54,626 bases of DNA, taken from Sphingomonadaceae bacterium. Its GTDB lineage: Bacteria > Pseudomonadota > Alphaproteobacteria > Sphingomonadales > Sphingomonadaceae. How positions within the stretch are numbered: the stretch's first letter is position 1; every line of letters starts with the position of its first letter. The position numbers and the translations under genes are program-made. The stretch covers positions 1-54,626 of the forward strand of contig JAIOYN010000003.1 of NCBI GenBank assembly GCA_021741065.1, given 5' to 3'. Under the pieces are notes generated by a model, which saw only the letters and a program-made list of their open reading frames with translations, was not told the DNA's origin and ran no database searches. Below are positions 16,608-18,948 of the stretch, in pieces.

Positions 16608-16759
16608 CGTTTGCGACAGGCCAACATTGGTCGAAGACTGCGCATCCAATTCAGGTAGCGGCAGTTTCATGACGTAAGGGACGAACTTAAAAAGTCTGAT
16701 GGGTGACGCTCCGTTGCCTGAACAAGCTACTTCTCCCGAATAATCAGAAAGGTCGTAAT

Positions 16760-17287
16760 ATGACGTCCACCGCGGCGATATTTGATGTAGGCGATTATGT
16801 GGTATATCCCAAGCATGGGGTTGGCCGCGTAATTGAACTTCAGGATTCCGAAATCGCAGGGATGCAGCTTCAGCTTTATGTGCTGCGTTTTGAGAAGGAA
16901 AAAATGACGCTGCGTGTGCCTTTTAACAAGGCTGAGGGCGTTGGTATGCGCAAGCTTTCAAGCGACAAGACGCTGAAAGAAGCGATGCACACCCTGACTG
17001 GCAAGCCCAAGGTGAAACGCACCATGTGGTCTCGTCGTGCGCAAGAATATGAAGCGAAGATCAACTCAGGCGACCTGGTATCGATCGCCGAAGTGACGCG
17101 CGATCTGTTCCGTCCCGATGACCAGCCAGAGCAAAGCTATTCCGAGCGGCAGATTTTTGAAGCCGCATCCAGCCGTCTGGCGCGCGAACTTGCCGCCATG
17201 GAAAAGACCGATGAAAAAGCGGCACTTCAGAAAATTCTCGTCATCTTGAATGAGGCGGCACCGCAATATTACGAAAAAGCGGATTAA
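16760..17287 (+). CDS. carD: CarD family transcriptional regulator
   Basis: RNA-polymerase-binding factor that stabilises promoter open complexes, mainly at rRNA and housekeeping promoters. The N-terminal RNAP-interaction domain starts FDVGDYVVYPKHGVGRVIEL, followed by the C-terminal helical DNA-binding domain (RRAQEYEAKINSGDLVSIAEVTRDLF). The length of 175 residues is typical. I chose the ATG at 16760 over the upstream in-frame GTG at 16703 because homology starts there and AAAGG precedes it. The gene stands alone: a promoter-like element lies upstream and a strong terminator downstream. Confidence 0.94.
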   Translation: MTSTAAIFDVGDYVVYPKHGVGRVIELQDSEIAGMQLQLYVLRFEKEKMTLRVPFNKAEGVGMRKLSSDKTLKEAMHTLTGKPKVKRTMWSRRAQEYEAKINSGDLVSIAEVTRDLFRPDDQPEQSYSERQIFEAASSRLARELAAMEKTDEKAALQKILVILNEAAPQYYEKAD

Positions 17288-17378: not shown

Positions 17379-17747
17379 ATGTCCTATATGATAATCGGCG
17401 ATATGGCCAAAGTGATTGTCTGGTATGACGGAGCATGCCCCATGTGCATGCGCGAGATTGCGTTGATGCGCCGACTCGATGTGCGGCGCTCTATCGACTT
17501 TCTGGATATAGCGCCTGCGGATGCGGTGTGTCCGCTTGACCGTCAATTGATGTTGGCGCGCTTCCATGCCAGCGAAGACGGCGTCATCCTATCGGGCGCC
17601 GCCGCCTTCGCCGCCATGTGGCGGGCCATTCCATTGTTGAAACCCCTTGGCTTCATCGCCCGCAACCGGCTTGTTCTTGAACTATTCGAACGGCTCTACA
17701 CCCGCTTCCTCGTCATCAGGCCGCGCCTGCAAAAGTTACTGGACTAA
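17379..17747 (+). CDS. DUF393 (DCC family) thiol-disulfide oxidoreductase-like protein
   Basis: A 122-residue thioredoxin-like protein. The family signature D-x-x-C-x-x-C is present as YDGACPMCMREIALM, together with the later RxHASEDG and GAAAFAAMWRAIPLLKPLG blocks of DUF393. No signal peptide is evident, so it is probably cytoplasmic. The start is uncertain: in-frame ATGs at 17379, 17388 and 17403 all have weak ribosome sites. Its stop codon is one base before the GTG of the photolyase-like gene (TAATGTG), so the two are almost certainly cotranscribed. A redox function paired with a flavoprotein is possible but unproven. Confidence 0.83.
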   Translation: MSYMIIGDMAKVIVWYDGACPMCMREIALMRRLDVRRSIDFLDIAPADAVCPLDRQLMLARFHASEDGVILSGAAAFAAMWRAIPLLKPLGFIARNRLVLELFERLYTRFLVIRPRLQKLLD

Positions 17748-17748
17748 T

Positions 17749-18948
17749 GTGATCGGCGACACCTTCCCCGCGACACGCAATGCTGCGCTGTTACGCCTCA
17801 CCCAGTTTGCCCCACGGGCTGGCCAGGCTTATGCGTCTGGCCGCAATACCGACGCTGGGCCAGATCAAGTAGGCGCTGTTTCAATGCTTTCGCCCTACCT
17901 ACGCTATCGCATGATAACCAAACAAGAAGTCGTTGGTGCCACGCTTGGCCAACACAGCCTGCTCGCAGCCGAAAAATACGTACAGGAAGTTCTGTGGCGC
18001 ACTTACTGGAAGGGCTGGCTCGAGATGCGGCCGTCGGTATGGAAACAATATCTGCAAGAGCGTGACCGGCAACTTAACAGCTTCCCCAATATCCAGGCAA
18101 TCCGAAGTGCAGAGGCCGGCGAGACGGGCATCGAAGGGTTTGACGACTGGGCGCGCGAATTATTGGAGACCGGTTATCTCCACAACCACGCAAGAATGTG
18201 GTTTGCGTCAATCTGGATATTCACCTTGCGCCTACCGTGGGCTCTGGGCGCAGATTTCTTCCTAAGGCATTTGGTGGACGCCGACACCGCGAGCAATATA
18301 TTGTCCTGGCGTTGGGTGGCAGGCCTACAAACAGTCGGCAAAACCTATCTTGCCTCCGCCGATAACATCGCCCGCTTTACCAATGGCCGATTTGCACCAA
18401 AGGGGCTAGCAACCATTGCAACGATGCCAGCCGAGATGCCGCTATGTGCGGCACAGCCGCTACCCCAAGTTTCCTATTTCGACGCGAAAAAGCCAGCCTT
18501 TTTAATGGTAACGCCAGAGGACTTGCACCCGGAATCCGTCTTTGGCGCAACCGCCCAGATCAACGGCGCAGGTGTTTTATTCGACCCTGACACCTTATGG
18601 GGGGACAATGCACGTTCCTTTGTCGCAGAGGCAGCACGCGACGCCGCCGCACGCGTTGGCAACTATTTCAACTGCCCACCGAAATGGCTCAACAATTTGG
18701 ACGTTGCAAGCTTGCTGGCCCAAGCCCGCGAAGCAGGCGCAGAGCAGATCATCACCGCTTATGCACCGGTTGGCCCCGTTGCGGATGCCTTGGCCCGCAT
18801 CGCGCCCTTATTGGCGTCGGAGGGTGTCCCCCTTGTTCAAGTTCGGCGTGCCTGGGACGCAAATTTCTGGCCCCATGCGACCAAAGGTTTCTTCCCGTTC
18901 AAGGAACGTATTCCGAAAATGCTGAAGGAAATGGGCCTTTCGAGTTAA
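17749..18948 (+). CDS. Photolyase/cryptochrome-like FAD-binding protein with a C-terminal alpha/beta domain
   Basis: Flavoprotein related to DNA photolyases, 399 residues from the GTG at 17749. Residues about 70-235 resemble the photolyase FAD-binding helical domain: KYVQEVLWRTYWKGWLEM, HNHARMWFASIWIFTLR, then LVDADTASNILSWRWVAGLQ. The usual N-terminal alpha/beta antenna domain is missing from its normal place. Instead residues about 245-399 look like an alpha/beta domain ending ITAYAPVGPVADALA and FWPHATKGFFPFKERIP, which recall that antenna domain, so the protein may be circularly permuted. The downstream-of-FAD motif GKTYLASADNIARFTNG differs from classical enzymes. Repair or signalling activity is unknown. 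Confidence 0.78.
   Translation: MIGDTFPATRNAALLRLTQFAPRAGQAYASGRNTDAGPDQVGAVSMLSPYLRYRMITKQEVVGATLGQHSLLAAEKYVQEVLWRTYWKGWLEMRPSVWKQYLQERDRQLNSFPNIQAIRSAEAGETGIEGFDDWARELLETGYLHNHARMWFASIWIFTLRLPWALGADFFLRHLVDADTASNILSWRWVAGLQTVGKTYLASADNIARFTNGRFAPKGLATIATMPAEMPLCAAQPLPQVSYFDAKKPAFLMVTPEDLHPESVFGATAQINGAGVLFDPDTLWGDNARSFVAEAARDAAARVGNYFNCPPKWLNNLDVASLLAQAREAGAEQIITAYAPVGPVADALARIAPLLASEGVPLVQVRRAWDANFWPHATKGFFPFKERIPKMLKEMGLSS

Follow-up and report, generated by a model that had tools for sequence, protein, structure and literature searches.

The window, which is the whole 54,626-nucleotide stretch of Sphingomonadaceae DNA that was analysed, carries a gene of predicted NewPHL photolyase type at 17749..18948 (+). 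The gene runs from a GTG start codon (17749-17751) to a TAA stop codon (18946-18948) and encodes a product of 399 aa, exactly as the initial annotation had placed it. Among 32 loci, 29 carry ATG or GTG at the corresponding codon, a count that includes the window's own locus and some near-duplicates, and therefore the GTG start is supported. Directly upstream is a gene for a DUF393/DCC1-like thiol-disulfide protein (17379..17747, +; PF04134, E 2.8e-18), whose end at 17747 confirms the one-base gap that had been described between its stop and the GTG. Such a gap suggests that the two genes are probably translationally coupled. A CarD-type transcription regulator gene (16703-17287, +; PF21095, PF02559) also lies upstream.

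Domain order and fold

The N-terminal FAD-binding/catalytic domain comprises residues 1-229 (17749..18435, +), as judged from PF03441 and from VIA-align to 1iqr. PF03441 (FAD_binding_7; residues 78-200, E 1.9e-20) was the sole Pfam match of the 399-aa protein, and at E values up to 1 nothing was matched before or after it. Five NCBIfam photolyase/cryptochrome models matched inside residues 4-220, every one under its cut-off. A phmmer search of PDB sequences found photolyases from E 4.8e-15, aligned through their C-terminal FAD half. In that search no chain of a solved structure was matched over full length, and therefore the two-domain arrangement rests on the model. VIA-align of the whole model gave Z 16.1 to 1iqr, pairing model residues 1-226 with chain residues 170-411, and structural matches of the FAD half span residue 1 to about 229. 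Of the 50 Foldseek rows listed for the whole model, nearly all are photolyases or cryptochromes, aligned over about 210-250 columns. The photolyase FAD-domain pattern previously recognised at residues of about 70-235 is real, and the domain is larger than had been noted. It had also been observed that no alpha/beta domain precedes the FAD domain; in agreement, neither Pfam nor the AlphaFold model revealed a classical-type N-terminal alpha/beta domain (PF00875) at that position.

AlphaFold modelled the full-length protein with a mean pLDDT of 96.0 and a pTM of 0.92, and a second domain occupies about residues 245-399 (18481..18945, +). Residues 236-399 by themselves were folded by AF2 with a pLDDT of 91.5. 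In the full-length model, residues 250-365 form strand-strand-helix-strand-helix-strand-helix-strand, bearing out the C-terminal domain of about 150 residues with strand-helix alternation that had been described from the sequence. AF2, VIA-align and Foldseek all point to the photolyase antenna-domain fold. When the C-terminal half was used alone, the best VIA-align match was the N-terminal domain of 1iqr, a Thermus photolyase (Z 10.8, rmsd 3.2, 145/164 residues, chain from residue 2), and rows 1-15 were photolyases or cryptochromes throughout, with 145-152 residues aligned. In Foldseek, class II photolyases and plant cryptochromes, two of each, took the top four ranks, the first row being 2xrz_B at E 1.2e-3, and nothing in the PDB was matched below E 1e-3. 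Both searches match residues 245-399 to photolyase N-terminal domains, the resemblance on which the initial annotation had staked its proposal.

The sequential Foldseek alignments cover 124-177 columns in the photolyase/cryptochrome rows listed, and in 14 of the first 15 VIA-align rows the aligned range opens at residue 11-14 of the model and 1-6 of the chain. Chain ranges in some rows end at 230-284, inside the FAD half, where the last few aligned residues may be misplaced. Alignment of the alpha/beta domain begins close to residue 1 of classical photolyases, so its internal order is unchanged, and the alignments give no sign of the altered strand order of a circularly permuted alpha/beta domain. 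The circular permutation that had been suggested therefore holds for the whole-domain order, which is inverted, and fails within the alpha/beta domain, which is internally unpermuted by AlphaFold, Foldseek and VIA-align. Taken together, sequence and model show a protein that begins with a complete helical domain for FAD binding and ends with a predicted antenna-fold alpha/beta domain in its normal internal order. The modelled domain order, FAD half and then alpha/beta half, is inverted with respect to textbook photolyases. In the parts of the literature available to us, 'circular permutation' in connection with photolyase or cryptochrome concerned optogenetic or synthetic-biology tools only.

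Relationship of the C-terminal domain to antenna domains

The C-terminal domain could instead be an independently recruited HUP/USP-like Rossmann domain that has only its fold in common with antenna domains. This explanation is compatible with NewPHL membership, and we regard it as unlikely, albeit deserving some weight. Universal stress proteins, which have a similar fold, reached up to Z 9.1 against the C-terminal half in VIA-align, where rows within 1 Z count as tied; just 1iqr (10.8) lies more than 1 above them. The remaining photolyase rows tie with them on Z and are set apart by aligned length, since most universal stress protein rows align about 110 residues whereas the first 15 photolyase rows align 145-152. 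TcdA and phosphopantetheine adenylyltransferase took Foldseek ranks 5 and 6, and in Pfam searches with single members BLH_phosphatase was the commonest match (10/94, best E 7.9e-5), DNA_photolyase (PF00875) being found in 4/94 (best E 0.0024). Moreover, when the C-terminal domain was compared by hhalign with class I antenna domains (30, taken from related genomes), no signal emerged: 16 of 200 shuffled-column controls did at least as well as the score of 16.8, and the reversed alignment reached 17.2. The best PDB profile hits, BdcA/YjgI-like proteins (E 3.3e-4 and 3.7e-4, about 65 residues), were read as a shared Rossmann element and not as relatives.

Independent recruitment is opposed both by the longer photolyase alignments and by a bridge through a third set of sequences. 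In the phylum of the genome that holds locus L024, apparently cyanobacterial, FAD-only ORFs of about 280 aa have a small antenna-like ORF downstream at 11 of 20 loci (L143-L162). The term cyanobacterial rests on the title of the L024 record, 'uncultured cyanobacterium', and on a likeness to the Phr4/Phr5 pair of PMC9426592. These ORFs resemble that pair as it is described in the part of the paper available, the identification being our own. The 11 Phr5-like ORFs were chosen by eye and trimmed at a motif, and in L159 the small ORF is some 830 bases downstream of the point where the FAD ORF ends. Their profile scored 29.1 against the window's C-terminal family (HH probability 33.8%, 58 columns) and 36.5 against the class I antenna domains (HH probability 74.3%, 133 columns), beating all 200 column shuffles at each step (top scores 22.6 and 30.1, respectively). 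This modest bridge, of which the first link is short, suggests that the C-terminal domain is homologous to the antenna domain via the Phr5-like ORFs and not by direct comparison. What is added to NewPHL here is a confident structural prediction of the antenna fold at 245-399, together with modest bridging evidence of homology.

Class and predicted role

The architecture is kept across 95 aligned homologues, and residues E80, W83, R84, N146, R149, M150, W164, D177, D179, N183 and W187 are invariant in 95/95 rows. Together with the 45 positions that are invariant in the 89-row alignment A1, this conservation argues against chance. The 95-row set was drawn from 111 loci and omits L053 and L099 (partial), L094 (one in-frame TAG), seven FAD-half-only loci (L002, L106-L111) and six near-duplicates (L083, L084, L086, L093, L097, L101); alignment A1 holds 89 of the 95 rows and A2 holds 94. 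We take the FAD, CPD and Trp-chain roles of the invariant residues to be those of classical photolyases, as read off the phmmer alignment. A family-wide absence of flavin-binding residues had been named as the weak point of the original proposal, and the FAD-domain residues proved invariant.

W164 and W187 are present in 95/95 rows and the third Trp of the triad is not conserved, which points to a Trp dyad by alignment. In a visual alignment, F112 occupies the place of the distal Trp in Anacystis photolyase, and L, F, V, M or A stands there in at least 82/95 rows. N183 (95/95 rows) aligns with the classical Asn at the FAD N5 position. No column contains Cys in more than 45/95 rows, and hence there is no conserved four-Cys set. 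These features agree with the literature on NewPHL, for which PMC8948257, PMC12083526, PMC9426592 and PMC13274461 are cited from the parts available to us: a 'mere Trp dyad' is given for the D. shibae NewPHL (PMC8948257), the Asn is conserved in NewPHL (PMC12083526), and Phr7/NewPHL is stated to be without the four-Cys set (PMC9426592).

NewPHL was described by Emmerich et al. (2020, NAR 48:12845; via PMC9426592, PMC13274461, PMC8948257 and PMC12083526), and proteins with reversed domain order are described as NewPHL/SPL (PMC9426592, PMC13274461). Named NewPHLs include A8LJA9, M7YZC8, Q2N8F4 and B6IPR5, and an Erythrobacter litoralis protein is listed among NewPHLs (PMC13274461). We assign the window protein to the NewPHL class with a probability of about 0.93, the placement being made against published descriptions of the class. 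As far as those descriptions go, the shared features are a N-terminal FAD domain, a C-terminal atypical photolyase domain ('Z-domain'), a bacterial origin, the lack of a FeS Cys set, the Trp dyad and the conserved Asn. No difference was found; the window gene directly follows a DUF393 gene, as is likewise the case in some close relatives. The novelty implied for the domain order did not survive this comparison, as NewPHL had already been described, and the finding is thus a correct reading of a known class. The single protein is ordinary, being one more NewPHL.

Other photolyases share some of these features. The FAD domain and the CPD-site residues are common to class I/III CPD photolyases, whose antenna domain is at the opposite end. 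The cyanobacterial Phr4/Phr5 and Phr6 share the reversed order but differ, in the available text of PMC9426592, in that FeS Cys are reported, that Phr4/Phr5 are two ORFs and that Phr5 is recognisably antenna-like. Separately, L162 (G091:C38), from the phylum of L024's genome, encodes a fused reversed-order protein, identified by eye, with 2 Cys in its 451-aa frame; FeS Cys are reported for Phr4/5/6 in the same part of PMC9426592. The short photolyase-like (SPL) proteins also lack a N-terminal alpha/beta domain, and SPL and NewPHL are treated as one in a 2026 paper, in the part available (PMC13274461). SPL has been linked to a FeS cluster (PMC9649867), whereas the window protein's family has no conserved Cys set, and a FeS-type short photolyase was rejected on this basis. 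A DASH cryptochrome was also rejected, with TIGR02765 scoring 57.5 bits against a cut-off of 317.05 bits. The SPL proteins are reportedly those of Xu et al. (2021, Mol Biol Evol 38:4505).

In the proposed mechanism, FAD would be seated in the N-terminal domain and photoreduced through a short Trp chain, W187 and W164. A CPD would bind at the conserved putative E80/W83/N146/M150 site, where an electron passed on by reduced, light-excited FAD would split it. Analogy with the characterised NewPHLs would make CPDs in single-stranded DNA the substrate of the window protein. Instead of carrying an antenna pigment, the C-terminal domain probably packs against the FAD domain and closes it, as Emmerich et al. 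2020 are said to have proposed. The likely role, by the same analogy, is light-driven CPD repair in single-stranded DNA, beside the class I-type photolyase (PF00875 at C90) and the DPRP protein (C62) found elsewhere in the genome. A DASH protein above the model cut-off was found in 0/61 genomes (the window's own and 60 related genomes), and therefore NewPHL could fill the single-strand role. The broad suggestion of 'light sensing, RNA/DNA repair or redox' would thus narrow to CPD repair in single-stranded DNA, as reported for NewPHL in the available parts of PMC9426592 and PMC13274461.

Distribution, gene neighbourhood and origin of the reversed order

From genome contigs, at least 592 candidate stretches were retrieved, of which at least 589 were confirmed as relatives at E up to 1e-3; these may include other photolyase classes. 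The best 80 of these are 45-88% identical, with record titles naming alpha- and gammaproteobacteria, Actinomycetota, an acidobacterium, Eremiobacterota and others; among the titled matches listed, a Sphingorhabdus sp. MAG comes closest (88%). Within the 61 genomes, 55 have some match and 24 have a NewPHL-type match, namely 22 of the genus (L001, L083-L103; L099 partial) and two that belong to other families within the order (L104, L105). The remaining matches cover the FAD half only, at E 1e-24 or weaker. In the phylum to which L024's genome belongs, a match occurs in 49 of 98 genomes; it covers the full model in L024's own genome (G061) only, and L024 may be a misbinned contig. Similarly, 63 of 98 genomes from the class of L042's genome have a match, which is full-model in L042's own genome (G062) only and part of the FAD half in the others. 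On plasmids, a relative at E up to 1e-30 occurs in 8 of 72,556 records, 6 of which are annotated 'FAD-binding domain-containing protein' under the match.

Gene neighbourhoods were counted in 79 of the best 80 loci (L053 was dropped), using the longest non-overlapping open frames and not annotated genes; flanks are short in several loci, so the counts are lower bounds. For each cluster the family was checked on a single representative, with a second one for DUF393. The DUF393-cluster protein is directly upstream in at least 10/79 loci, and in at least 15/79 an open frame of a PF00875+PF03441 cluster begins before the end of the NewPHL-type gene. A DPRP-cluster (PF04244) protein and a flavin amine oxidoreductase-like cluster each occur within the locus in at least 9/79. 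NewPHL-type genes thus adjoin other photolyase-family genes. At L018:6703-7959 (+), in the same neighbourhood, is a 419-aa ORF that ends in a DUF393 domain (306-413) and has no Pfam match ahead of that domain at E up to 0.01. Three consecutive photolyase-family genes, NewPHL-type, PF00875+PF03441-cluster and DPRP-cluster, are found in L014, L022, L026 and L035 (L022 and L026 being cut by the locus end).

The DUF393 gene ending one base before the start codon, its cluster at 10/79 loci and the further DUF393-containing ORF of L018 would all suit a cryptochrome, that is, a light or redox signalling protein that has lost repair and is the partner of the thiol-disulfide protein. Such a signalling role is nonetheless very improbable, given that the FAD- and CPD-site residues are invariant, that characterised relatives repair CPDs (in the available parts of PMC9426592 and PMC13274461) and that, in at least 15/79 loci, the open frame that follows is from another cluster of the photolyase family.

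For the FAD-domain tree, 61 rows were used: 24 of 95 NewPHL-type, 12 of 20 Phr4-like, 10 of 30 class I, 10 of 19 cluster-0 and 5 of 9 DPRP. The NewPHL-type rows group together with support 99/97, and the Phr4-like rows do so with 97/89. The two groups join at 80/5; the midpoint root is for drawing only, the bootstrap was unsettled and the tool gave a long-branch warning, and therefore the tree does not establish that the reversed order arose once. That the window protein is a FeS-containing SPL or Phr4/5/6-type protein is hardly credible, for although it has the same reversed order and the FAD domains group weakly (80/5), four conserved Cys were not found in the 95 rows and the NewPHL-type rows stand as one group apart from the Phr4-like rows.

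For the NewPHL-class photolyases, the order could have arisen if the FAD and alpha/beta halves were once separate genes and two or more fusions joined them, as antenna-FAD in classical photolyases and, the other way round, as FAD-antenna in NewPHL/Phr6. On this view the order found here would go back to an ancient fusion of its own and not to a rearranged classical photolyase; we consider this doubtful, with the odds clearly against it. In some genomes that are apparently cyanobacterial, a FAD-only ORF and a small antenna-like ORF are still separate. How the reversed order arose becomes a testable question.

The second photolyase-family protein (PF00875 + PF03441), seen at L033:5164-6711 (+) and directly after the NewPHL-type gene in at least 15/79 loci, has a very long branch in the tree. 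In L033 it carries the motif FVDYEPGIHWPQVQMQSG where the window protein has LVDADTASNILSWRWVAG, and by eye the conserved Asn and the proximal Trp are replaced.
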